From: Owenia fusiformis
Taxonomy: Eukaryota > Annelida > Polychaeta > Sabellida > Oweniidae
DNA length: 64,000 nucleotides
Assembly: GCA_903813345.2 (NCBI GenBank)
Contig: CAIIXF020000001.1
Coordinates: 33,810,866 to 33,874,865, forward strand
Direction: 5' to 3'
The notes beneath the pieces are model-generated. The model was not told the DNA's origin and searched no databases. It saw nothing but the letters and a program-made list of their open reading frames with translations. Shown here piece after piece: positions 3,033 through 43,630 of the stretch. The position numbers and the translations under genes were made by a program. Numbering within the stretch: the stretch's first letter is position 1; each line of letters opens with the position of its first letter.

Positions 3033-4084
3033 CCATAGTGACCATATTTTTCATCAAAGTTAAGAAGAGTCAATGACATTTGGCAGCCTCACGCCCAGTG
3101 ATCTGAAGAAATGAACGGAGGGGGGAGTAGCTGATTTTCGGTAAATTCAACAAATCTTGAAGATTTATTTTCAAGAGAAAGTTTGTGCCAGTTTTGAAAA
3201 AAATCTGAGGTCAGTTAAGCTATATTATCCAAGGGAGACATGTCTAGCTTCTCCTAGAGATAACTACATATGTTTTTATTTATGGAAATTATGTTGAGAC
3301 CATTTGAAGGGCATATATTGTATGGTATGAGATACTGTATTTTGAGCAATGATGTCTCAATCAGAGAAAAATTTGGAAATTTTTTATGACGCACACAGTA
3401 TACAGATCATGACCATGACAAGCCAAAAATAATCATACGCACATATTTGTATCTTTAACATTTTTACAAATAACAATTTTACCATTATCTGAATTTTTGT
3501 GAGCTGAACTGCAATAATAAAGAAAATTGAATAAAAAGAAAAATGTTCTAATTTTTTTTTGGCCCACCCTGTACATATTTTCTTCAGCAAATTTTATTTT
3601 CATAGAACGCATGATGAATCTTTTATTCCAAATTCTCAATTTCGCGTTTCAAGGAATTTTGGCTCACTATGAAGGATTCCATTGACATTACAATAAGTCA
3701 TGGGAAAGTAAGTCATAAGAAAGAGGAACACTGAGTTCCACCCATTCCAATGATGCAGGTTTTGTGCTAATTTTGAATATCTTTATGGTACTTTTACAGG
3801 TAATGGCTTTAGCAAATTGCAGAAATGCTAAGTTAGTTTTTTGGTCAAAGTAGGTTGTGAAATCACTAAAGAGAAGTCATGAATCTTTTACCATAAATGT
3901 GTTTTAAAATTATCGCATATTGTATTTCACCTGAACTTTTGTAAAATATTGTATGTTGTATAAGAGCTGTACAAAATATTGTATATGGTATAAAAGGGGT
4001 GAAAAAATATTGTATATGGTATAAGAGAGCTGAAAAATATTGTATATGCATTTCCAAGACCCTCTATACACCCCCCTGTCAAGG

Positions 4085-5166
4085 TCAAATGTCAAAATTC
4101 TCAGAAATCACATTTTAAGTAATAAGTCATACTTCCTCTTCAATTCCATGTCAATATATACTTGTTTTGTAGGGGGGCTAAAAGAGAGAGTCTTCTCGGA
4201 CTGTAATAAATAAAGGTCAAAGGGATGCCATTTGTACTCTCTTGAATTGTGGCATGTTTAGTTGATCCAAATGTGTTTGTCTAGAATAAAATAGGCTCAT
4301 ATATCACACTACTATACCTTGCATTTGGTGTTCATGAGCAACCCATTTGGCTTATTAGTAATGATTATGTATTTGTTTTTATTTGTCTGTTCCTTATGAA
4401 TGGTTTATCGGTTGAAAATTAGATGCTAGTAAGGCACTTTCAAAAATATATTAAACAATTCAATTAGACAAACAAAGTATCTTATGCATTTCTAGGTGTT
4501 AGGTATAGTAGTGTGTATATAGTACATACATATAGACCCATCTCTTCTCAAATTGACTTTTTGGAGATGCTCGTTATGAAACACCCTGCATGTCATTTGT
4601 TGAGCTACTGAATGGGTTGTTTCCAGGAATTGCTAGAACCTATTGGTTTGATTGGTGTTTCAAATTGATGGTTAAAGTATTTGATTGGATACTGTTCCTA
4701 CTCAGCCAATTAATTTTTAAAAATGCTTGCGGTCAATTGTTCCACACACATGTAGGTAAAGCTTTATACGGAGATCCAACTGTATACGTTTATCATCTAC
4801 GTGTATATACAATTTTGTAAGTTCATTGAACTTATACTGATTATGAAAACTTTGAAATAATCAACTTGTTTATGTAATGACTCACTTTAAAGGATCATGA
4901 CTCACTTTAAAGGATCGTGTTTATAATACACTACAACTACTAGGACACGGAAGCAAGCATTTAATTATAATGTGCATAATCTACACATACAGATAACAGT
5001 GCATTCAGTCTCTGGTTGATGGAGCGTTTCTATATTGGGAATAGTTATGTTCCATTAAGTACAATTTAAAATTGATTTTAGTAAATATAATAGTTCGACA
5101 TGACCCTTTAAACTATACGTATAAGTTGTACTTACACTTATGTGCGAAATCTCTCTATTGTTTATG
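4085..5166. other. Non-coding stretch, no gene recognised
   Basis: An open frame of 76 codons at 4590-4820 has no recognisable domain, and its DNA resembles sequence at about 45630-45680, so it is probably dispersed repeat. A 22-bp direct duplication (ATGACTCACTTTAAAGGATC, about 4877-4917) is present. Nothing else is supported. Confidence 0.5.
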
Positions 5167-5268
5167 AATCACTAGGGCAGAGCATTTGTACTGAAAGGAG
5201 CGTTTTCAGTACAAATATGTACTGAAAAATGTACTAGTTTTGTTTCAGTACAAATTTAAGTATATTTA

Positions 5269-6768
5269 TCCCATCGAACGAAGTTCGGAGGGATATAGGG
5301 AACGCCTCCGTCCGTCCGTACGTACGTCCGTACGTACGTCTGTCCGTCCGTCCGTCTGTCCGTCCGTCCGGGCAATAACTCAAATACCGTTGGCCCCATT
5401 TTGTTCATATTTTGTACACATATACCCTATGGGGGTAGAAGTTCTGCTCGAAAGCCGATTTTCAAAATGGCCGCTCATTTCAAAATGGCGGCCATTTTAG
5501 TGCCGATTTTACAGTAATTTAGGTGTAATATGTAAAACTGTAATAGCAATATGTTTTAAATGTAAAAAAATTATATAGGACATTAATAATGCTACAAATG
5601 TAGATATAAAAGAAGCACATGGCAGCCATCTTGAAAAATGGCGGCCTTTACTCGTCATTTTCATTTTTTTTGCTATAACTCAAAAAATAGTGGAGCGATT
5701 TTGTTCATATTTGGTATGTGATTACTATAAGCATTGCACACTGTCTAAAGACACTTTTGGTAGAAGGCGGACATTTTGAAAAATGGCCGCCATTTTAACG
5801 TATTTTACTATAACTCGAAAAGAAGTGGAGCGATTTTGTTCATATTTGGTATGTGAATACTATAAGCATAGCACACTGTCCTATGACACTTTTGGTAGAA
5901 GGCGGCCATTTTGAAAAAAATTTTGAAAAATGGCCTCCATTTTAGGGGCGGGGTCAAAATATCAATGTTCATATGGAGACGAAAGTAATTTCGTTTGGAC
6001 AACAACCCCCCCACCCCCCCTCTAGACGAAAGCTTAGGTCACTTCAAAAAAACATTGATTTTCAGGCATAATCGTATCCTATTTGCCGGGTTATTATTAC
6101 GGTGAATTAACACACGTTCGCAATTTAACTGCATTGAACTCTTCAAAAGGAGGAGGGAAAAGTACGGAATTTATTTGAAAAATGATCGAATTATCGTCTT
6201 TATCTACCGATATTTTGGACCTATCACACAAAAAAGCTCACGAACTATTGAAAACAAGCCTTTTTATCAGAACATAGCGCCAGAAAAAGTGGGTAAGTCC
6301 AATTATTTTTTGTATATCAGATCCGAATTATCGATGTCTTTTTGGTCAATGAAAGTGCCCAAAAACCCCCTCCCCCCTCGCGAAAGTACTTTCGTCTCCA
6401 TATGAACATCGATATTTTGACCCCGCCCCTTAATGTATTTTACTATAACTCGAAAAGTAGTGGAGTGATTTTGTTCATATTTAATATGTGAATACTTTAA
6501 GCATGGCACATTGTCTAATAAAACTTTGGGGAGTAGTCGGCCATCTTGAAAAATGGCCACCATTTTTATGTGTGTTATTTTACAAGTACGTGTGCGATTT
6601 TTCAAAAATTTTAGAGGTGGCTACTTAAAAGCATATTATTTCTTCTGATGACAACTTGGCTAGTGAGCAACCATTTTGAAAATGGTGGCCTTTCTGGTGT
6701 GTTGTTTTTTGATATTTGCTATTCGTTTGAAAAAATGTCGCTACGCTTTGGCGTTGCCGTTGTTCTGG
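5269..6768 (+). mobile_element. HINE-like element, family A copy 1
   Basis: It begins TCCC directly after an A and ends CTGG directly before a T, as Helitrons do (A^TC...CTRR^T). The start folds: TATCCC and CGAAC, a GAA loop, then GTTCG and GGGATA. A (CCGT)n microsatellite follows at 5308-5370. The core has repeats around GTGGAGCGATTTTGTTCATA (5690, 5827, 6461) and CAAAATGGCCGCCATTTT-type palindromes. The 3' hairpin is GCTACGC, TTTG, GCGTTGC (about 6740-6757), eight bases before CTGG. The inner inverted repeat GTTCGATGGGAT found in other copies is eroded here. It is interrupted by the MITE at 5945-6429. Confidence 0.75.
5945..6429. mobile_element. Harbinger-like MITE, 485 bp, TTA duplication
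   Basis: Inverted ends GGGGCGGGGTCAAAATATC (left) and the complement at the right match for about 48 bp with about two differences. TTA flanks both sides (5942-5944, 6430-6432). Removing the segment and one TTA gives CCATTTTAATGTATTTTACTA. The sister core unit in the same element has CCATTTTAACGTATTTTACTA (5791-5811), so an empty site can be read. A 3-bp TTA target is typical of PIF/Harbinger. No transposase inside. Confidence 0.8.
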
Positions 6769-7127: not shown

Positions 7128-7860
7128 TAAATCACTCAAAAAGTTCTTAGAATGGTGAAAAGTGCATGATTTTAAAAGAATTTTTGGCCGGGGTGGGGGG
7201 GTGGGGGGGTTCGCTTGGACCCCTGGAACCCCCCCAACAGGAATGCTATTACATTATGAAATTGTTTTGGATGCTTCCTTTACAGCAGCCTTTAACCAAA
7301 CTTACAAGAGTCTTTCTGTAATCAGGTTTGTTTTGCCTTGTCAAAATATTTTGTTTTGTCAGTGGATTAATAAAGTTTCTTTAGACACATCCTTTAAAGC
7401 AGACTCTAATCAAACAGGAGAGGCTAGGTTTACTGTAATCAAGTGATTTCCTTTTTAGAAGTTATGTTTATGGATTTATTAAAAACGGCCTAAATCACTC
7501 AAAAAGTTCTTAGAATGGTGAAAAAGTCCATGATTTTAAAAGAATTTTTGGCCGGGGGGGGGGGGGGGGGGGTTCGCTTGGACCCCTGAACCCCCCCCCC
7601 CCCCCCAGGAATGCTATTACATTATGAAATTATTTTGGATGCTTCCTTTACAGCAGACTTTAACCAAACTTAAAAGAGTCTCTCTGTAATCAGGTTTGTT
7701 TTGCCTTGTCAAAATATTTTGTTTTGTTAATGGATTAATAAAGTTTCTTTAGACACATCCTTGAAAGCAGACTCTAATCAAACTGGAGAGGCTAGGTTTA
7801 CTGTAATCAAGTGTTTTCCTTTTAATAAGTTATGTTTTTGGATTTAATTATTTAAGATGT
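7128..7860. repeat. Tandem duplication, 363 bp, with G and C homopolymers
   Basis: Copy one starts at 7128 and copy two at 7491, both with AAATCACTCAAAAAGTTCTT. Each has a G-rich tract after TTTTTGGCC. In copy two, about 20 G are followed 17 bases later by a run of about 17 C, able to pair as a hairpin. No stable coding frame spans both copies. Confidence 0.8.
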
Positions 7861-8307
7861 ATCCTGTAATAATATCTGATTGCATTTTCTCCATCAATAA
7901 ATTTCTTTTTAGCCCGATCAAACCTTTCAAATATAATGCATATATAAGGGTTATGTACTGGGAGGTTTTGGATACCCATATTTCCTGAGGGATAACCCTT
8001 TATTTAAAACTGATCGTACATAACATGTGTATTCCATACCTTTTGAGGTTTCTAGATACATTCTACCTTATTAATTAAGTTCTAAAATTCAAAAACATTA
8101 AAGGTACACATTTTCTCAGTCTTAAAAATAAGTTTTTCATGAGATTTTCACTCATATTGCTTGAGAAAATTAATTAATTGATATCAAAATTAAAATATAT
8201 AACATGAACATAGAACCTCATTTGTTCGAGTATAGCAAAATCCATGGTATAGATGTCAAAGTCAGGAAGATGTCGTAATTCAAAATCTAAGTATATTTTT
8301 CAGTATA

Positions 8308-28000: not shown

Positions 28001-28308
28001 TTATTACTAATTAATAAGAAATAAATCCTTTAAAGTAATTTAAGGAATCTGCAAGTGGACCTTAAATGGATTTATACTGACTGGCCGGATATCCAATCAT
28101 GTACTGGCTTTCACTTTCAGTTATACACGTGTGTCTCGAGTTACATCTTGGGTCTATCTACTACATCCTAGCTAGACAGCATCCTTCATTCAGTTTCATG
28201 TTTCGAAACAGACAACATAAATAAGCATTGGTTTGTTATTAAAAAATTATTGTTTCAACTTTACAAGCTATTGAGCATTGTTATATTGAGAAAATATTAT
28301 ATAACATA
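28001..28308. other. Spacer, no gene recognised
   Basis: Short non-coding stretch between the HINE and the long-TIR element; no repeat recognised. Confidence 0.4.
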
Positions 28309-29059
28309 TAGCGAGATCAATAGTGCAAAAATAGTTCATTCATGGAACGAAGCGTGAAACTTTCCACATATCATCAGAATACCATTCCCTTTGATTTAAG
28401 AGCCAGAGCCATTTTTGTAGTTCATTAGAATGACCGAAAAATTGCAAATACCCCCTCCCATCAAATCCTGGGGGGAGGGGGAGGGAAGAATTATTTTTTT
28501 GTTGATTTTTTTTTTAATATGATCTATATTCATTTTGAGTATGTTATTTTCAGTGTTAAAAAAACAATTTTCAAGATTGCATCAGTATTTCTCATTGATA
28601 TTCATTGTTAAAGCCTGACCAAGGGCGACGCCCACTTTATCAACATGTTAAATATACAAGTTAATGAGTCTTCTATTATGAATAGGAAAATTACCTAATA
28701 TGGCTGAATAAAACTGACAAGATTACTTATGTTAAGATAATAGATGCTGTAAGTAAGTCAATTTCACTGTTAAAGGCTTGTGAAAGGCCACACCCCTTTT
28801 AGATATAAAGATATAATAATATATAATTCACAATTAATGATACATAATTTTTAATGAGAGCACTTTGACTAATTGATACAAGTTACCTCATTAAGTATCT
28901 TAACTGCAGTTCAAATATCCTATTTTGTGCATTTAAGCACTTCAACACTCTATTATCATTATCACTCACTTAGGTGCCATGTCCATTACAATCCCTGTCA
29001 CACAAATACAGGGCAATACATGCATAATATTGGCTTTAAAGCACTTGCATCTTTTTGTT

Positions 29060-31520
29060 GAGCACTATTGTTTGCAGCTACATTTTACTAGCATTTGGCA
29101 TGCATCTGAAGCTTTGGGCAATGTTTTCCATACTGGCACATAAATCATTTTTCCAGCCTTTGTGGTAATGGATTCCCAACTCAGTTTTGAGAGTGAAGCG
29201 AGGACTGACATAGGTATAATTGTCTGGACCGAACTTATGCAACCTATGGTGGGATGTTCTCAATTTGAGCTGTTTTCTTTGTGAACATTTCTTGTCTTGC
29301 AGCATTTACAGTTGTTTCATTGTTGTCTCTGTTGTATAAAATCACAACAAAACGTTCAGTGATTGGCATAACTTTGGCTTACTTATTGGGATCTTCAGCC
29401 AAAGTTTTAAGTGCATTTGTCAACTCGGATAAGTAATCCAATGTTTCTACGCTGTTGTTTTTAATTTACCATGGAATCCGGATATAGTTGCAGCTGCCAT
29501 TTCATGTGAGATATCTCTAATTTTTTACTTTTCCCAAAGCTATCCATTTTTGAACTTTGAGTTCTGATGATATACTGACTGTGAGACAGACAATATCAGT
29601 CTACTGTTCTAATCATCAATGTGTTCTACCCAGACTTTACTGCACGGTGGATGTGCTTATTCATGTGTTGATGGGGAAATGTCTTGAATGGGCATCGGGG
29701 GATATGATAATACATCTTACAATACATTGTTTACATCATCTCTAATACATTCCAATTTGATGGTAACATTTCATCTACCTTTCGGCACTTAATTAGTTGT
29801 TTTAATTGTTCCATTTTGAGATAAAGAGGGTGGGAAGGATTGGTTTTCACGTTTGAAGAACTCCTCAAGATGACTGTCTCTATTCTGACATGCAATGAAC
29901 AGTCTTGAAAAGAGAGCACAATCATTTTTTTCAATGCTGTTTCCTTGGTAACATTCACTTTTGTTTTCTGTTCCTTAAATATTAGAAAATTGTTTCTTTT
30001 TATATAGATAGTGTCTGTTATTTGTTTAGATTTGTCATCCAGTTTTTCTTTAGTGTACAATTTGTACTGATCCTGGCCACTTTGCTCCATTTCCCAAAGA
30101 CGACCCAGGTTCACAAGCAGAATGTTGATTTATGATTATTCTCTACAAGTTTGGATCGATTAACTTAAATAGTGTTACCTTCATTTAGAAATGATGATGT
30201 TGACCTGATGTTAAACTGAAATAAACACCATCTCCACAATTTCACATTTTACTTTGCTCATGTGCTGCCCTGAGAGACCTCATGCTCATGATTGTGCACG
30301 TAATCATGTCCTGCAATTTGATTTTACATCGTATACTGATGGGCGTAATTCAAATAAATTATGTTCATGAGTACGAAAGAATATGATAGTATTATGGGAA
30401 CTACTCACTTCTTCTGGACTGACATTGAGGATACAATATCTTTGTTGTCTAATGAGTACAAGTCATTTGAAGTCTCCAGAAAGGATTTCCCATCTATTCT
30501 ATGGTTTCTGATAATAGTTTCACATTATCTTTGAATCTTTGTTGTATGCTTATACTTTGTTCATGATTAGATAGGTCTTCATCTTGATCATTATTTATAT
30601 TGTTCTCAAATTCATGATCAGTCTGACAAATTCAGGGCCCCCAACCATCCAATAGAGTTGTCTGGTTGTCAAAGAGCCACACTGCTCCACTGTTTGATTT
30701 ATCTAGACTGTTATTCTGCTTGTGAACCTGGTCAGTAGCACTAGCAATGGCTGAAAAGCTCGATCTTGGTAACAGTGAAGTGGCCTTTTGTGAAGGCTTC
30801 GTAGACTTCTGGATGTATTTGTTATAGTTGTAGCATATTCCTAATGTGAACTGGTACTCATCAAGCATATTGACAAGGTCAAAAAATGAAAAACCAGGTG
30901 ATACGCTTGCTAATTGACTCGAGATAAAGAGGGAAATTGCCCTCTCTGATAGCACACACTTAGTTAAGGCACAGTATTTCGATTCAAATAATCGGAAACC
31001 AAAACTTAAAGACTGGTACATTCTGTTGGTCAGCACACCATTCTATCAAACTCTTTATCACTTCATCATCTAGATTCTAGACAGCTGTATATGTAGTATA
31101 GGCTCTCTTGAGAATTTAGAGACTGCAGGCTGTGACTGTGTGGCGGCCCTTCTGGTTCTGGTTCAAACCCATAAAAGAGGTTTAATAGCCTAAATGTTCA
31201 GCATATGAAAAGTGGGTGTCGCCCATGACTAGTCTTTAACAACTATGAAAATCAAAGAGAAACCATCTGGAAATAAAGAGGAAAATTCTCCTGTCCTATA
31301 GCCCTCACATAGTCTAGGCACAGTATTTCAATTTAAATAATCAGAAACCAAAGCCTGAAGACTGGTACATTCTGTTGGTCAGCACACCATTCATAAAACT
31401 GTTTAGGCACTTGGTCAGCACACCATTCATCAAACTGTTTAAGCATGTCATCATCTAGATTCTGGACAGTTGTATCTGTAGCATAGGTTTTCTTCAGGAG
31501 AATATAGAGACTCGACATAC
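29060..31520 (-). pseudogene. Remnant of a large uncharacterised transposon-associated protein
   Basis: Minus-strand pieces occur in an order I recall from large, unnamed repeated proteins of cnidarian and mollusc genomes. First comes a W-C-A-D-Q ... F-R-L-W-F ... E-I-L-C-L-D-Y-V-R-A-I ... N-F-P-L-Y segment (31480-31240, partly duplicated at 31080-30900). Next come LYSLDNKDIVSS near 30440, then GQDQYKLYTKEKLDDKSKQI and IKRNNFLIFK (30080-29980). Then LTNALKTLAEDPNK and ERFVVILYNRDNNE (about 29435-29325), and a W-K-T-L-P-K-A-S-D-A-C stretch at about 29110. Stops and frameshifts interrupt nearly every piece. The family link is memory-based and has no assigned enzyme function. Position between long TIRs suggests it belonged to this element. 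Confidence 0.5.
30900..31520 (-). repeat. Internal tandem duplication of about 350 bp in the long-TIR element
   Basis: AGACTGGTACATTCTGTTGG occurs at about 31010 and 31358, within longer matching blocks. A further 30-bp duplication (GGTCAGCACACCATTCAT) lies at 31377-31430. Confidence 0.7.
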
Positions 31521-32317
31521 ATGTACATAGAATAGTGGATACATGTTATAGATCTGGGACATTTGTTGCTCGCTTTCTTCTTTCTTCTAAGCAGGGGTGT
31601 GATATGTTATGAGCCTTTTAGAAGTCAAATTCTAAGATTAATTATAGCACCTAACATCAAAAGAGTATCTGGTCTTATTCAGAAAGCTGAATTACATTCA
31701 TTTATTCAACCAATGATAGAGATTTAATAACCTAAATGTTCAAGATATGAAAAGTGGGCGTCGCCCATGATTAGTCTTGAACAATGATGAAAATTGATGA
31801 TAAATCATCTTGTTATGTTTGCAAAATTTCTTTACCATGAAAATAGCACACTAAAACTGTGGTATGACCATATTCAAAGAAATTTTTTTATGAAAAAAAT
31901 ATTCCTATATCTCCCCACCCCCACAGGATTTGGTGGGAGGGGGTACTTATTATTTTTTGATCATTCTAGTGGACCACAAAAATGGCTCTGGCTCTTAAAT
32001 CAAAGGGAAAGGTATTCTGATGATATGTGGAAAGTTTCATGCTTCGTTCCATGAACGAACTATTTGCCTGTTTTCTTGCACTATTGATCTCGCTAATAAG
32101 AAAGAACACTATTTATAAAACACTATTTATACAATTTATAACATATTTTTACTTTACGAACTTATAAGTTAATAAATACACAGTTTGTGGATTGAATTCG
32201 ATCATTTACCAAATTCCATAGTGGACGGGACTCGGAAGGAGGATATAAATCTCTTCACCATCTAAAGTGATATCTATTAAACCCTGTGAGTATCTGTTCC
32301 TTTATACATTTTGTAAC

Positions 32318-32905
32318 ATGGATGGATTATCAGCAATGCTAATTGGACATTCCTTTGTTAGGCGCTTTAAGAATTATGATTGCACAACTGAAGACAAACG
32401 CGTTAAATGGAATCTTGGGCTAGAACGCATTCATATTAGATATGACGGTTTGGGCGGTAGAAAAGTAGGGACAATATTGAATGAAACATTGGAAAATAAA
32501 TTAAAAAATCCGCCAAACATAGTCATCTTACAAATTGGAGGAAATGATATCTCAAACGGAAAAAGACCCGAAACAGTTGCCTCCGATATAGAAAATCTAG
32601 TTATGAAATTACACCAAGAATATCACGTCGAATATATTTTAGTATCTGAACTTATACAAAGAAAATCAGCTCCTTTAAAATACAATGAAAATGTCATGCT
32701 ATGCAATCGTATTCTGACAGCATTATTAGAGCACATTCCATTCGCAAAGCTGTGGCACCACAGATGTATTAGGAATAGCCAATTTAACCTCTACATTGAA
32801 GACGGTGTCCATTACAATGATCGCGGAAATTATAAACTCTATCATGGGCTCTACCACCCAAGCTACAAGCAAGCATGCATCTTCGGTGAAAGTCAACTTA
32901 ATTAA
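32318..32905 (+). CDS. SGNH/GDSL hydrolase-like ORF of a DIRS/Ngaro-type element
   Basis: An intact frame of 195 codons from the ATG at 32318 (an earlier in-frame ATG exists at 32267). It carries all SGNH blocks: GHSFVRR (block I, catalytic Ser), GLGGRKVG (block II), QIGGNDIS (block III, Asn) and DGVHYNDRG (block V, Asp-x-x-His). The later start puts block I near residue 10, as in the family. Such hydrolases cleave esters. They are known as accessory ORFs in Ngaro-like tyrosine-recombinase retroelements and some CR1 ORF1s. Downstream lie a hairpin array and Gag/RT frames of the same type of element. The role in the element is unknown. Being the least damaged frame of the cluster, it may be young or under selection. 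Confidence 0.75.
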   Translation: MDGLSAMLIGHSFVRRFKNYDCTTEDKRVKWNLGLERIHIRYDGLGGRKVGTILNETLENKLKNPPNIVILQIGGNDISNGKRPETVASDIENLVMKLHQEYHVEYILVSELIQRKSAPLKYNENVMLCNRILTALLEHIPFAKLWHHRCIRNSQFNLYIEDGVHYNDRGNYKLYHGLYHPSYKQACIFGESQLN

Positions 32906-33159
32906 TATACAAAACATAAGCATTGCTGGTAAGACCCATTATTGTATTTTTCTACTCGTAGCATGATGGGGTAGTGCTATAAAGATTTAATTGAAAAACA
33001 AATTATTGTATTAGAAAGATATCTTTATATATATATATCACGCAAACAGGGTAAAGGTAATGCAGCACTCAATATATATTTCTCGAGCTGCCGAAAGCTG
33101 GGTAACCATTCCTTGTCTTAATACAGTAGCCATTTGAATTATATCATTGTTTGTGCATC

Positions 33160-33772
33160 GCTCAGAATCAGCTTCTGAGCATTTAATTGTGAGATTTAAT
33201 CACAAGGCTCACTCGTCCCTTGGATTGAAATCATATCCAAACTACGGACAACAACTATTACCTTTTTTTAACGGTCTCAAGGATTGAAATAAGTCTCCTT
33301 AATTAAAGACTTTAGTGCCCTCTTAAATAGTATTACGTTCTATTTGTTTGAGGGTTGAAATCATTATCCTCATACTTTATCTCACGGATTGAAATTAGTA
33401 TCTGTCGAGACAAAAATGGCGTTTATATGTTTGTTCGAGGATTGAAATTATTATCCTCATACTTTATCTCACAGATTGAAATTAGTATCTGTCGAGACAA
33501 AATGGCGTTTATTTGTTTGTTCGAGGATTGAAATTATTATCCTCATACTACATCTCACTGATTGAAATTAGTATCTGTTGAGACAAAAAATGGCATTTAA
33601 ATTGTTTGATCGAGGATTGAAATTATTATCCTCATACTTCATCTCACGAATTGAAATTCGAATCTGTTGAGACAAAAAATGGCATTTAAATCGTTTGATT
33701 CGAGGGTTGAAATTATTATCCTCATACTTCATCTCACGGATTGAAATTATTATCTGTTGAGACAAAATATGT
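33160..33772. repeat. Array of short hairpins with changing stems, loop TGAAAT
   Basis: A run of stem-loops: GCTCAGAA/TTCTGAGC (33160-33180); TTGTGA/TCACAA (33187-33205); TTGGAT/ATCCAA (33220-33240); AAGGA/TCCTT (33279-33300); GAGGGT/ATCCTC (33350-33371); ACGGAT/ATCTGT (33384-33405). From 33350 the last two alternate as a tandem unit of 86-90 bp (starts 33350, 33436, 33522, 33611, 33701). From the third hairpin on, the loop begins TGAAAT while stems differ but stay self-complementary. It lies between the SGNH and Gag frames. It is not a CRISPR array. Confidence 0.8.
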
Positions 33773-33927
33773 TGTTTTTTTAATTTGTTTGTCTTTGTTT
33801 GTCTTGCTTTATTAAAATTGTAAAATATCGCTGTTACGTAATCGTATAAATAAATCAACGAATATCTAATCATATGTCCTTAACTTTCTTTATTTTCCCA
33901 CCGCGTCTCTCGTTTTATTCGCAGATC

Positions 33928-34907
33928 ATGCCTAAGAGACAACTAAGACCCAGGGGATCGCCTTCAAGGGCACCCGGAAGATTAGAACAAAAAAGCAGAA
34001 GTTGAATGAGGAGTTGGTGGTGGAAATCACGAAACGGGTGGTAGAAAGTCTATCCCAGCAACCTGCAACATCAACAAATACACGAGACAACTCTACTAGC
34101 GAGGACTCTGGGGATTCAGACGGCGAGGTCTCATTCCCAAAATTAGGTACGGAAACAAACCTCAATGAGCCCGAAGCTCCTTCTAAGGCATTTTCTTTCC
34201 AAATACCTATCGACATGCATGTGCCAACAGCTATTAAGCAAAAAATCTGGAATAACGAGTACGTAGAGTTCGGGTCACTTCTCCCTAAACATTCACGAGT
34301 CAAAGACTCAGAATTCGATTTGAAACAATCCAAATCAGGTAATCTTAAAATAACCAAGGCCCAAGGTAATTTTAAATTAGTTTCCATTAAAGAATTGATT
34401 TCCGCTTTCCATATTTTCACCACCATACATTGCACAAAATATGGCACGGATGCAATTCCTTTAATGCACTATGGCCAGAATGTAAGGAAATTAGCGGAAA
34501 ATCATTTGGACTGGAACTACTACGACGAAAATTTTCGACGGGCAAGGGCCAATAATATATCATTACCCTGGGACCAGCCTCATCCCACGTTATTCATTTT
34601 TACTTCCCTCGAGGGAAAGCAACAGCAAAATAACAAGCACAATAACTCTCAATACCCAAGCAATAGCAAGTCAAAACCAAACATCCCCAAAGGATTCTGT
34701 TACAAATTCCAATTAGGCCAAACTTGCTTCAAAAAATCTGAATGCAAATTCCACCACTATTGCTTTAAGTGTAATAGTCCCTCTGCAAACCATCCAGGCT
34801 TGAAGTGTAATAAGAATTTTCGACCCCAACGCTCGTCCTCCAATTTTCAAACTCCAAGTAACAAGGGTCAAAACTCAAATCACAATGCCAACACCAATAA
34901 TCATTAA
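33928..34907 (+). CDS. Gag-like protein of a DIRS/Ngaro-type element
   Basis: The long frame is open from 33936 and reads in full from 34002 (a TTG codon) to 34907. The likely true start is ATG 33928 (MPKRQLRPRG), which is in another frame, so a small frameshift near 33960 is suspected; the second DIRS-like remnant also begins MPK-x-RQ. Features: an acidic, Ser-rich N-terminus; a central IPIDMHVPTAIKQKIWNNEY and EFGSLLP block, as in DIRS/Ngaro-like Gag proteins; an Asn/Gln-rich linker; a CCCH finger (C-x8-C-x5-C-x3-H) followed at once by a C-x2-C-x6-H knuckle (GFCYKF ... HHYCFKC). It should bind the element's RNA. It overlaps the RT frame by 23 bases in +1. Confidence 0.7.
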
Positions 34908-35435
34908 TAGATTATCATACTATATCAAGGGATACGATGCGTTTCTGTCTAGCTACCTTCTAAATGGTTTCAGCAATGGTTTCAGTATTGGTTATTTTGG
35001 CGAAAGAGAATCGAGACGTTCAACTAATTTTAAGTCGGCCATAATCAATCACCACATTGTTAAGGAGAAAGTTAAATCTGAAATTCAAAAAAACAGGATT
35101 TCACCTCCCCAGTCTGATCCACCGTTTGATAAGTATTTTGTCACATCTCCAGTGTCAGTAATTCCCAAAAAGACTCCCGGCGAATTTAGATTAATTCATG
35201 ATCTTTCATATCCGAAAGGCTCTTCTATAAACGACGGAATTCCAGTTGAATTGCGATCTGTCAATTACTCAAACGTATCTGAAGCAATCAAAATATTTTC
35301 GGAAATGGGTATGGAATGTTTTTTAATAAAAATCGACATTCGTTCCGCATTCAGAATCATTCCTTTACATGAAGACGATTATCAATTACTAGGTTTTGAG
35401 TTCGAGTGAAATTATTACTATCAAAAGCAAGGTGG
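34885..35435 (+). pseudogene. DIRS/Ngaro-type reverse transcriptase, N-terminal part, broken
   Basis: The frame (34885-35409) contains EFRLIHDLSYPKGSSINDGI, the typical DIRS entry motif, and LIKIDIRSAFRIIPLHEDDY with the first catalytic aspartate (motif A). A TGA at 35407-35409 follows LLGFEFE. Behind it NYYYQK continues the protein, so the stop is a point lesion. The homology then ends at about 35435, where GC-rich motif DNA (35438 on) begins. Motifs B and C (the Y-x-D-D box), RNase H and recombinase are not found downstream. The start overlaps the end of Gag. Confidence 0.8.
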
Positions 35436-35437
35436 GT

Positions 35438-36335
35438 ATAGGTAACGCGGCGCAGTCAAGCATATCTGTTCAAAACGAGGCTGCAACGCGGTAAAGACAC
35501 AAAATGGAGGCAACTCCAATTATCGGAGGCAGTTCGTCCTCTGTTTCCTCGAAACATAGGTAAGTTTTTGAAAACTCATGCTTCACACTCGGTGATCAAC
35601 CCCTTAAGGTATGTAAAGCTATAAGAATTTCTGTTCAGGCATTGACCAGAATAAAGAAATAGTCAACGCAGATATGATTTCCCGATCCTATTTCTCTTGA
35701 CCTATCTTCTTATTCCAATTAAGGAGGTATTTCGCCACTCATGAGCAAATTTAACATTGACATTCAATAGCCTGATACTTATAGAATGTACAATACAAAT
35801 TAAGATTGAAACTTTTGTTTATTTTCATCGCAATCTGCTTACAAAATTGAACTAGTCGGAAACGCGGCGCAGTCATTTTCAGCAATTATGGCAACGCGTC
35901 GACAGCATAGATTAAATTGTATGGCAACGCGGTGCAGACATCAACTTTCTCTGTATTGTAAAGTACAAAGAAGTTTTGCATTATGCTTTTCTGTCGAGGA
36001 TTTTGATTTAATAAGGCATGTGACTTTTTCAGAAAAAGATCAAGCAATACATGCAATACCAATCTATCCCTATACAGAACGAAGAGACGAAGAATAGGGA
36101 GCAATTCTACAATAAACATAAATGTCGAGGGGAATAAACGGAAATTCATATCACCAGATAGGGGGAGGAGGCCAACAACCCCACTTCCCGAGGTCCGCTG
36201 GGCACCAAAAACAGCGCATCAACGTCCCGTCAGACACATCAGCTGCATTGCTGTCACTGCGTTTCCAGTTTTGTCAAATATGTATGATGTCTGAACCCGC
36301 GTTGCCGAAGTGTCTGAACTGCGTTTCCAAAATAT
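35438..36335. repeat. Block with a repeated 17-bp GGCAACGCGGTGCAGAC motif in both orientations
   Basis: Forward copies lie near 35441, 35482, 35858, 35890 and 35923. Inverted copies lie at 36253, 36289 and 36312 (GTCTGAACCCGCGTTGCC type). Forward copies are all on the left and inverted ones on the right, so the block can fold back. It interrupts the RT frame. Open frames inside (35888-36097, 36122-36391) cross these motifs and have no recognised domain. Confidence 0.65.
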
Positions 36336-37599: not shown

Positions 37600-39226
37600 T
37601 TTAGAAAAAAATTGGCTAAAAATGGAAACTACAAAATGTCAAAATGTTCAACTCAAACAAAACTCTAGCTATTTAATATTAACACTATGTATTATTTAAT
37701 GTTTTTCAGATGTTTAAGGACCTTCATGAGTGTACTAGTGTCTAGAAATAAGATAATAAAGGACAAAATTTGGCATTTTTGATCATTTTCGCTTTCAGCA
37801 GTAACATATAGTTCCTTATATCTTGAGTTTAATGTTGACTGGTTGTTGCAATTTTGATTAAATCTGTGCTTGTACATGTCTTCTTCCATTTAAGATACAA
37901 AAAATGTATATTGGACCACCAATGGTCATATTAGAGCTTTCAGATCTCCCCTACCCCATTTATTATGAAAAATTACTGAAACATATGAAAATATAAAATA
38001 ACTTGAATTTATAAACTTTAACAATGTTGTAGCTATTCTATATCAATATTATGTATTATTTAATGTTTTTCAGATATTTCAGAACCTTTATTGGTATACT
38101 AGTGCCTAGAAATGAGACATTTAAGGACAAAACTTGGCATTTTTAAAAATCATTTAGGCTTTCAGCAGTAACATATAGTTCCTCATATATTGAGTTTTAT
38201 GCTTACTGGTTGTTGCAATTGTAATAAAATCTGTTTTTGTAGATGTCTTCTTCCATTTAAGGTATAGAAAATGTATAGTGGACCACCAATGGTCATATTA
38301 GAGCTTTCAGATCTCCCCTACCCCATTTATCATGAAAAATATAAGAAAAATATGAAAATATAAAATAACTTGAAACTATAAACTTTAATAAAGTTGTAGC
38401 TATTCTATATCAATATTATGTGTTATTTAATGTTTTTAAGATATTTCAGAACCTTTATTGGTAAACTAGTGCCTAGAAATGAGACATTTAAGGACAAAAC
38501 ATGGCTTTTTTGACCATTTTCGCTTTCAGCAATACCATATAGGTCCTTATATCTTGAGTTTAATGCTGACTGGTTGGCGCATTCTTAGTCAAATTTGTTC
38601 TTGTACATGTCTTCTTCCATTTAGGATATAGAAAATGTATATTGGACAACCAATGTTGATATTATAGCTTTCATGTCTCCCCTGCCCCATTTATGTAAAT
38701 GAAAAAGTAATTTCAAATCATCAACTTTAACAAAATTGTAGCTATTCTCTATCGATACTATGTATTATTTAATGTAACCTTCATTTGATTACATGTGTCT
38801 AAAATTTGGCATTTTTAGCATTCTGCATTTAGCAGTAGCATATAATTTTCCACAATTATAATTCTTTGATGATAGATTCATATATGTTTTTTATTGAATC
38901 TGTCTTCTCTGATTTAACTTAAAGAAAATGTATGTAAGACAACAAATGTTTTTATTAGAGGTCTAAGATCTGCCCTCCACCATTAAATGAGAAAACCAAC
39001 ACAAATGTTATTATTGCATGATAATATTCTTAAACTTTTCAAAAGTTTAGCATATTTATTAGTACACTAAAATCAAAAAATGACACATAAATAGGCAAAA
39101 TGACCAATGTTTCACTTTCAGCAATAGTTGTTTATATTTTTAGTTGAATGGTGATTAGTTGACATATTTTAGATCATATATATTCAACAATGTGTCTTGT
39201 TATCTTCAAAGCATGGAAAATGTGTT
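37600..39226. repeat. Satellite, 365-bp unit, left arm (about 4 copies)
   Basis: TTCTTCCATT recurs at 37881, 38248 and 38612. Each unit also has GACCACCAATGGTCATATTAG, CCCTACCCCATTTAT and ATTCTATATCAATATTATGT. The units decay toward the right. Several units lack the next one's ends, so the tandem is old. Confidence 0.8.
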
Positions 39227-39230
39227 TTAA

Positions 39231-39802
39231 AGGGTGACGCATATCGTTTAGCAAATCGAATGCTCGTTTCTGTTGTTGCTCACCGTTTAGTATAAAAGGC
39301 CCGATCCCGGAATAATACTCAAGGGTTCACAGGTTCGAGGTCTTTGTGTCAACACCTCTAACTGTTATATAGCATAAGTATATTATAGATCGTCACACAT
39401 TTATAAAAGGGTGATTTTTATTTTGACAAATCAATTCCACATTTATAGGTGAAGTTTCAGGATCTTCTATTTGTGTATAATAAGGAAAAATTGGCATCTA
39501 AATTTCCCCATAACGTAATAGCACACAGATTGGCATATGAAATATCCTACAAATGAAACAAAGCAAGAGAAACCGGTTTCTAATACAAGAATTTATATTG
39601 GCTGTTGTACATGTATTATTTGAACGCAATCACTCTTTGGATAACGTTTTCAAAATCATTATAAACGGATTACTTTATCTCAAAGACAATTTCAATTAAC
39701 TGGATTTTACAGAACTCCCCTTATTTCTTAAAAATGGACTGATCCAGTTGATTCGCCTGGAGCCGCCATATTGTTTTTATACGGAATGCTAATCAGAACC
39801 CT
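39231..39802. mobile_element. TTAA-flanked MITE, copy 2
   Basis: AGGGTGACGCATATCG after TTAA (39227-39230) and GAACCCT before TTAA (39803-39806), a perfect 4-bp duplication. 572 bp. Together with copy 1 it brackets the left arm of the giant inverted repeat as direct repeats. Confidence 0.85.
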
Positions 39803-41979: not shown

Positions 41980-43630
41980 ATATCATAACCAGAAAAGCCC
42001 AATGGACAAAGATAGAGAATACCCGCCCCATTTGCAACTCAACTTTAAATGTCTAATTTTTAGACTTGTATACTCATGAAGTTCCTGACACATCTGAAAA
42101 ATATCAAATAATACATAGTATTGATCTAGAATAGCGACAACTTTGTTAAAGTCTATACTTTGAAATTGTTTGGTTTTTATATTTCTGGTTATTTTTTCAA
42201 AATAAATGGGGTAGGGGAGATATGTAAGCTCTAATATAATGACAGGCTTTCCAATATACATTTTTAAATACCTTAAATCAAAGTAGGCAGGCAAAATAAC
42301 AGATTTGATCAAGAATCCATCAACCAATCAGCATAAAACTCAAGATATAAGGAACTATATGTTATTGGTAACAGTGGAAATGATGAAAAATGCCAAATTT
42401 TGTTCTTCAATGTCTAATTTCTCTACACTAGAATACTAATGAAGGTCCTGAAACATTAATTATAGCAATCAATAACACATAAAGAATAGTTACATCTTTG
42501 TTAAAGTTTATACTGGTAGTTTGAAGTTATTTTTTATATTTTCCAGTCATCTTCCCTAATAAATGGGGTAGGGGAGAACTGAAAGCTCTAATATGAACAT
42601 TGTTTGTCTATTATACATTTTCAGTACCTTAAATGGAATAAAAGATGTACAAGAACAGATTTAATCCAAAATGTATCAACCAGTCAGCATAAAACTCAAG
42701 ATATGAGGATCTATATGTTACTGCTGAAAGCAGCATTGATTAAAAATGCCAAGTTTTGTCCTTAAATGTCTCATTTCTAGCCACTTGAATACCAATAAAA
42801 GTTCTGAAAAATCTTAAAAATATTAAATAACACATAATATTGATAATAGAATAGCTACAACTTTATGAAAGTCTATAATTTCAAGTTATTTTATTTTTTT
42901 ATATTTCTCGTTTATTTTCCATAATTGATGGGGTAGGGGAGATCTGAAAGCTCAAATATGAACATTGTTTGTCTACTATACATTTTCTATACCTTAAATG
43001 GAAGAAGACATGCACAAGAACAGATTTGATTGAAAATGCAACAATCAGACAGCATAAAACTCAAGATATGAGGAACTATATATTACTGCTGTAAGCGAAA
43101 ATGATAAAAAAAAGCCAAGTTTTGTCCTTAAATGTCTCATTTCTAGCCACTTGTATACCGCTATAGGTTCTGAAATATCTTAAAAACATTAAATAACACA
43201 TAATATTGACATAGAATAGCTACAACTTTGTTAAAGTTTATAATTTCAAGTTATTTTATTTTTTCATATTTTTCGGTAATTTTCCATAATAAATGGGGTA
43301 GGGGAGATCTGAAAGCTCTCATATGAACAATGGTTGTCCACTATACATTTTCTACACCTTAAATGGAAGAACATATGTACAAGCACAGATTTAATCAAAA
43401 ATGCAACAACCAGTCAGCATTAAACTCGAGATATAAGGAACTATATGTTAATGCTGAAAGCGAAAATGATTAAAAATGCCAAATTTTGTCCTTAAATGTC
43501 ACATTTCTAGACACAAGTATACTAATGAAGGTCTTGAAACATCTGAGAAACCTTACATAACACAAAATATTGATATAGAATAGCTACAACTTTGTTTGAG
43601 TTGAATATTTTGACTTCTTGTATTTTCCAT
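41980..43630. repeat. Satellite, 365-bp unit, right arm (inverted, 4-5 copies)
   Basis: AAATGGAA recurs at 42631, 42997 and 43361 and, decayed, near 42270. The units are the complement of those at 37600-39226 (for example AAATGGGGTAGGGGAGA against TCTCCCCTACCCCATTT). Confidence 0.8.

Follow-up and report, generated by a model that had tools for sequence, protein, structure and literature searches.

The closest described relatives of the element reported here are Ngaro retrotransposons of the DIRS order, whose layout is set out in passages of PMC8547959 and PMC9210276. Split direct repeats, reverse transcriptase (RT) with RNase H, a tyrosine recombinase, Gag and an SGNH gene are common to both. 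The amphibian Ngaro-like members described in parts of PMC9210276 carry SGNH after the recombinase, whereas here it is the first frame, and the same passages report SGNH as an extra of some members that does not define the family. The words hairpin, splic- and tandem (repeat) are absent from the main texts of PMC9210276 and PMC8547959. Repeats of other kinds are known from more distant elements: in the sections of PMC7004042 on Tat/Ogre LTR retrotransposons, repeats sit at a fixed place and differ in sequence and length, and the Drosophila gypsy insulator, in the account given in part of PMC2493044, comprises twelve clustered repeats that Su(Hw) binds within the 5' untranslated region. Between the SGNH and Gag frames of our element we find a row of hairpins with changing stems and a near-constant loop. 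Such an array is undescribed in the literature searched, whose coverage leaves outside it most subscription papers on DIRS/Ngaro elements, and the hairpin spacer is new as far as that literature shows. We tentatively propose, at clearly less than an even chance, that this Ngaro-type element uses the array as a folded signal acting in cis, lying in an intron-like spacer and kept only in unspliced RNA.

Coordinates are positions in the window, the whole 64,000-nt stretch of DNA analysed, unless another locus of the same genome (L-numbers) is named. Mapped on L013, the host element is about 7.1 kb long, with split direct repeats and an SGNH frame before Gag. Repeat A1 (L013 1059-1353) matches A2 (7408-7702) and B1 (7163-7411) matches B2 (7916-8164), both at 100% identity, and the order A1 - genes - B1 A2 B2 is the Ngaro layout. 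By eye, the two B repeats also hold several TTATGTAAT-like motifs, possibly recombinase or host factor sites. In Pfam searches, one L013 frame (3960-5633) matches RVT_1 (1.6e-20) and RT_RNaseH (1.6e-05), and another (5570-6532) matches Phage_integrase at 1.3e-04 and 22.2 bits, below the Pfam cut-off of 27.1. The putative tyrosine recombinase is assigned from this weak match, which is consistent with the split repeats and with where the frame lies in the element. Judged by its repeats and its domain matches, the host is a Ngaro-type tyrosine-recombinase retrotransposon, which bears out the DIRS/Ngaro assignment of the first-pass annotation. Nothing was found in favour of that annotation's further idea that the array is a binding site for the recombinase, and the repeats that mark the ends (A1, B1, A2, B2) sit elsewhere.

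The window copy is interrupted. A1, its only terminal repeat (28029..28308, + strand; 96-97% identical to L013 A1 and A2), is separated by a nested transposon of about 3.8 kb from the remainder of the copy (32096-35427), which ends inside RT. That remainder holds, all on the + strand, an SGNH/GDSL hydrolase frame (32318..32905; Pfam Lipase_GDSL_2, 3e-10), a Gag region (33928..34907; ATG at 33928, open over 33936-34907, broken near its start and with a C-terminal Cys/His cluster) and the start of the RT frame (34804..35427), where RVT_1 scores 0.0039, below the Pfam cut-off in this fragment, and where the alignment ends with the element copy at 35427. The nested transposon (28308-32095) sits within the A1 repeat. 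Its inverted termini agree at about 78% of 349 aligned columns, and by eye a short ATA/TA duplication lies beside it. Elsewhere in the window, inverted degenerate repeat blocks ('ggtaggggaga..ctgaaagctct'-like) at 37640-39250 and 42080-43600 face each other around 40-41 kb and by eye resemble the arms of a large foldback element.

The spacer between SGNH and Gag is 1022 nt long in the window, and its hairpin stretch (33160-33772) contains 14 short stem-loops (33160-33757, + strand), in keeping with the at least eight successive ones first claimed for these positions. Hairpins 1 (GCTCAGAA/TTCTGAGC, 33160-33180) and 2 (TTGTGA/TCACAA, 33187-33205) are without the TGAAAT loop. They are followed by hairpin 3 (TTGGAT/ATCCAA, loop TGAAATCAT, 33220-33240) and hairpin 4 (AAGGA/TCCTT with TGAAAT in the loop, 33279-33300), the latter one pair shorter than the AAGGAT/ATCCTT of six other copies. 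The rest is a tandem array (33343-33771, + strand) that TRF resolves into an 89-bp unit present 4.9 times with 90% matches; the repeat finder gives spacings of 86-90 bp within it. Each unit consists of one GAGGRT/ATCCTC hairpin and one ACNGAT-type/ATCTGT hairpin, in five alternations over 33350-33757. The arms of each hairpin are 9-10 bp apart, and TGAAAT directly follows the 5' arm in the last 12 of the 14, ten of these 12 making up the tandem array. The first-pass annotation had thus correctly described a fixed TGAAAT loop from the third hairpin on, a unit of 86-90 bp repeated about five times, and the stems TTGGAT/ATCCAA, AAGGA/TCCTT, GAGGAT/ATCCTC and ACAGAT/ATCTGT at their places. Its switch of one copy to CGAAT/ATTCG holds in part: that pairing is possible in another register that uses the loop, while ACGAAT (33646, unit 4) breaks the original stem.

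A chain of this density is not expected by chance. With a hairpin finder that required a stem of at least 6 and allowed one G-U, we found 13 hairpins in the 1022-nt spacer, against a mean of 4.0 (SD 1.7, maximum 8) in 60 dinucleotide shuffles; 11 of the 13 belong to the chain and two lie elsewhere, three of the 14 chain hairpins having been missed. Among 12 spacers, the count lay above all shuffles only in the window, L035 and L036. L025 was rejected as a hairpin-rich spacer, its raised count (10) falling inside its own shuffle range. The pattern of the common core (GGATTGAAATNNNNATCC) occurs at 35 places genome-wide against 1 for the backward control; 29 of the 35 are in element copies and 6 elsewhere, so this is not a motif that the host genome commonly carries. 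An Rfam 15 search of 32000-36000 returned two - strand matches (E 0.22 and 2.1), both below the gathering score and at chance level.

DNA matching the array region is found at least ten times in the 498-Mb genome: in the window copy, in six full-query matches, in partial or shortened form in L008 and L009, and in L010 (a 77% match over about 104 bases). The expectation that other copies carry the array is borne out by six long copies (L011-L016); in L019 the stem is lost, and the family of L020-L022 is without the array. The long array copies are 97-98% alike, too similar for covariation between copies, so we made the test across hairpins instead, using 20 distinct hairpins from nine sources (window, L011-L018) and 500 shuffles. 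These hairpins were chosen from a list of already observed stem starts, one broken hairpin being included and the stemless L019 site excluded. Stem cells were paired in 112/120 cases (93.3%) against 80.8% in shuffles, with 0/500 as high, and the covariation score was 0.469 against 0.232 (0/500 as high), slid registers giving at most 0.256. Two-sided change affected 3/6 stem pairs, a number reached by 155/500 shuffles. The outer three pairs change together with their symmetry kept. Four stem types can be told apart (TT/AA, AA/TT, GA/TC and AC/GT), and the inner GAT/ATC is for the most part common to them. Each type pairs 6/6 with its own partner, and one of the twelve wrong arm combinations pairs equally well. 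Steps within one type are also present (ACAGAT/ATCTGT, ACGGAT/ATCTGT with a G-U, and ACGGAT/ATCCGT), and TGAAAT is nearly invariant across hairpins while the stems differ. In a check for strand preference, G-U pairs occupied 11/120 + strand stem cells, alongside four A-C cells.

How many events underlie this pattern is limited by descent. Because the hairpin rows are related by duplication, we count about four independent stem types, and the ten array units are non-independent owing to tandem duplication. Some stems are also broken. ACTGAT/ATCTGT (33557, unit 3) carries a T-T mismatch in every one of the eight copies that retain the unit (window, L011-L016, L018). Unit 4 is broken in its original register in 7/8 copies, reading ACGAAT in the window, L011 and L013-L016 and AAGAAT in L012, with a paired ACGGAT in L018; most of the seven broken copies can pair in the loop-using register ACGAAT/ATTCGT. 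At the sole TGAAAT site of the decayed relic L019, the loop is intact and the stem gone. The compensatory change proposed in the first-pass annotation has support in that pairing and covariation exceed the shuffles, and is qualified by the small number of independent events and by the breaks in units 3 and 4 and L019. Between seven copies (window, L011-L016; L018 was aligned and left uncounted, L017 and L019 were unused), variable sites number 3/144 in stems, 6/119 in loops and 21/350 in linkers, the contrast of stem and linker being borderline and weak (one-sided Fisher 0.047). Between the same seven copies, SGNH varies at 6/392 sites of codon positions 1+2 and at 10/196 of position 3.

A second hairpin array occurs at the same place in a distant family. 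Genome searches listed at least 74 matches to Gag and at least 30 to SGNH, and we compared 38 stretches around selected matches. Four loci (L035, L036, L049, L057) make up a second family that shares the SGNH-spacer-Gag order, and the L035 Gag is 33% identical to that of the window. Their spacer is built of a 55-nt unit (13.3 copies in L035) unrelated in sequence to the window array, with the hairpin TCTCA-TTA-TGAGA enclosed by an outer stem whose arms come from adjacent units. At 45/45 readable junctions the outer pair is A-T (32) or G-C (13), with no mixed case; the junction script needs a constant stem core, and this count thereby omits the degenerate junctions at either end of an array. 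The A-T/G-C pattern may be a single double change that was later duplicated. One G-C unit of L057 lacks the tip change that otherwise accompanies G-C, so that more than a single frozen block lies behind the coupling, though gene conversion could do the same. An unrelated hairpin row at the same place in a distant family hints at a folded RNA or DNA signal.

Other families differ in what their spacers hold. The near-identical loci L020-L022 have open SGNH and Gag frames around a spacer of about 148 nt with no array, and the 165-nt spacer of L047 has none either. Plain tandem repeats are found in the spacers of L023, L024, L026, L042, L044 and L051, upstream of Gag in L054, and, at places that may lie outside the elements, upstream of SGNH in L035, L049 and L056. 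Unit number differs between copies, with fewer in L018 and unequal numbers in L035 and L036. No SGNH-array-Gag arrangement could be read in the nearer relatives L029, L031, L033 and L034. Several other motifs were seen in this survey. By eye, a CTGCTC(A)GGGAGT-like motif lies about 40-115 nt before Gag in several otherwise different spacers of L023-L027, and GCTCGGGAG lies at a similar place before Gag in L037/L038. L037 also has a 14-bp hairpin, AGTGAAATTGATTT/AAGTCAATTTCACT, at 2144-2175 (oriented), shortly before its Gag acceptor-like site, and tandem repeats of 15-45 bp lie within the N-terminal reading frames of Gag in L024-L028.

Such variety is what one would expect if the spacer were hypervariable non-coding sequence where tandem repeats keep arising through reverse transcription and hairpins aid template switching, with no function for the element. 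This neutral turnover is the main rival to a folded signal and of nearly equal standing, though in our estimate somewhat unlikely. It accounts for the tandem repeats of other sequence in the spacers of several families, for the varying unit number and for the families without arrays, and it has a precedent in plant Tat/Ogre elements, whose comparable hypervariable repeat regions are thought, in the passages of PMC7004042 that treat them, to be born of replication. It leaves unpredicted the two-sided stem changes, the fixed loop beside changing stems, and stems that are less variable than linkers, this last by a weak margin (p 0.047).

The same stems bear on whether the array could instead be a set of dyad binding sites in double-stranded DNA, such as a promoter, enhancer or insulator like that in the gypsy 5' untranslated region. 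Each hairpin is after all an inverted repeat with arms 9-10 bp apart, both strands fold, and the position before Gag recalls the gypsy insulator as described in part of PMC2493044. A binding protein should, however, fix the letters of its half-sites. In this array the three outer pairs vary in concert, symmetry being kept, and the non-palindromic loop is among the most constant letters, which makes such sites decidedly unlikely.

Fold energy was examined on both strands as local z-scores, with 20 shuffles for each array. The window array has z -2.8 (+ strand) and -5.8 (- strand) and the L013 array -4.7 and -9.2, respectively; five other parts of L013 range from -2.2 to +1.7 on the + strand, and the fold excess is thus local to the array. 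Ten leaders of other families give + strand values from -3.0 (L026) to +0.4, and one window flank gives -1.1. One of the leaders (L045) has a - strand z of -3.6. A + strand z of -3 or lower was found in 5/20 spacers (window, L035, L037, L044, L030), and a fold excess at z -3 is absent from the related loci L023-L028. With some families having an array and some having none, hairpin spacers are recurrent and not universal. L030 (Gag 60% alike) was dropped as a third hairpin chain, its GC-rich fold being an inserted dispersed repeat. That repeat (L030 2880-3120, oriented) folds strongly and occurs at at least 40 places in the genome (311 candidates). Both strands of the arrays fold, so a + strand RNA is not singled out. 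DIRS-order elements are thought to pass through circular DNA. Together with a - strand that folds as strongly or more strongly (z -5.8, -9.2), this lends something to the idea of a role for the folds in single-stranded DNA while the element replicates, such as a site of pausing or initiation. The array shows nothing that would link it to the terminal repeats, and we regard such a role as improbable.

The two ends of the SGNH-spacer segment carry splice-like sequences. We scored sites with a hand-made, untrained scheme in the 18 loci (window and 17 others) with a placeable SGNH stop and Gag start. In the window, the best donor score within 250 nt upstream of SGNH belongs to a candidate 5' splice site, CCT/GTGAGT (junction at the slash, 32286..32287, + strand), 32 nt before the SGNH start; the same donor letters are present in L013 and in the relic L019. 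By eye this candidate lies about 40 nt after a TATA-like sequence, so the first exon would be very short if transcription starts there. The best acceptor score in the spacer belongs to a candidate 3' splice site, a pyrimidine-rich tract with CAG (33907..33924, + strand), 3 nt before the Gag ATG. In 11/18 loci, against 1.3 expected, one of the three best acceptor-like sites falls within the 15 nt that precede the Gag ATG, and the top site does so in 6/18 against 0.45, the expectation being a rough null of evenly spread sites and the loci being partly kin (L023-L027 alike; L052 and L053 alike). A donor-like site (score of at least 3.6) lies at most 80 nt before the SGNH ATG in 6/17 loci (window, L020, L035, L051, L052, L053). 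In five loci (L023, L024, L047, L052, L053) the best acceptor-like site lies just before SGNH, with low scores except in L053. Two deletions in L017 were considered as splice products and rejected by eye, the first being without GT at its break and the second lying at a short shared CAC.

Given acceptor-like sites beside the Gag start in 11/18 loci, SGNH and the spacer may be an intron, and the predicted sites suggest that Gag would be made from spliced RNA and SGNH from another RNA. The least probable alternative, that the hairpins help to translate Gag from an SGNH-first RNA as an internal ribosome entry or re-initiation element, answers to the need of a second frame about 1 kb after SGNH for some translation route, but the acceptor-like sites explain Gag without an entry site, and families with spacers of 148-165 nt (L020, L047) lack the array.

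On our proposal of a folded signal kept in unspliced RNA, the spacer would behave as an intron, with a predicted donor before the SGNH frame and a predicted acceptor at the Gag start. The spliced RNA would give Gag; the unspliced RNA would give SGNH and retain the hairpins, which would serve as a mark by which full-length RNA is captured by Gag, exported, or both. By eye, Gag has a C-terminal Cys/His cluster in six families (window, L020, L024, L027, L035, L037); a strict Cys/His pattern is matched only by the window family and L037/L038, and Pfam gives Gag at best a sub-threshold zf_CCCH_4 in L035 (0.044). A near-constant loop, stems that change and mostly stay paired, many repeats and a Gag with a Cys/His cluster, together with retention solely in unspliced RNA should the intron exist, fit a repeated RNA ligand that Gag or an export factor would bind. 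We infer that splicing takes place, that the fold acts in RNA rather than DNA, and that Gag or an export factor reads the loop. Several observations count against a signal: tandem duplication has multiplied a small number of independent compensatory events, units 3 and 4 are broken and L019 has lost its stem, both strands fold, L020-L022 have no array, no more than 5/20 spacers have a + strand z of -3 or lower, one leader (L026) reaches z -3.0, and good donor candidates close to SGNH are limited to 6/17 loci.

A broader form of this idea is that SGNH-before-Gag elements keep a fast-evolving hairpin row in an alternatively spliced leader, made independently in each family from unrelated sequence, which would let Gag tell full-length from spliced RNA. 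We think this unlikely as it stands, but if true it would give this retroelement order, which is not known to have one, a signal for packaging or export. Little has to our knowledge been described of how DIRS/Ngaro elements choose, move and copy their own RNA. Two unrelated hairpin arrays in the same spacer, beside predicted splice sites, single out a 600-nt stretch and concrete junctions. Should neutral turnover of repeats prove to be the explanation, the array would still show in an animal genome the kind of hypervariable repeats at a fixed place that plant elements have.

Set against known systems, the array has partial counterparts. The repeats of Tat/Ogre elements lie in the 3' untranslated region, in contrast to the SGNH-Gag spacer here, and paired-stem conservation is not described for them in the relevant sections of PMC7004042. 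The gypsy insulator, as portrayed in part of PMC2493044, is alike in having about a dozen short repeats before Gag in a retroelement; its repeats are DNA targets of the zinc-finger protein Su(Hw), whereas here the stem letters change in pairs. Where an insulator of the gypsy type would have fixed letters, we find the loop letters nearly fixed and the outer stem letters variable. The packaging signal of retroviruses consists of hairpins between the splice donor and gag and is kept only in full-length RNA. Our array differs in that it is tandemly repeated, that Gag would here come from the spliced RNA, and that binding by Gag, which the first-pass annotation had raised, is a supposition. It resembles the retroviral signal in its hairpins, which follow a predicted donor, and in a Gag with zinc-type clusters.
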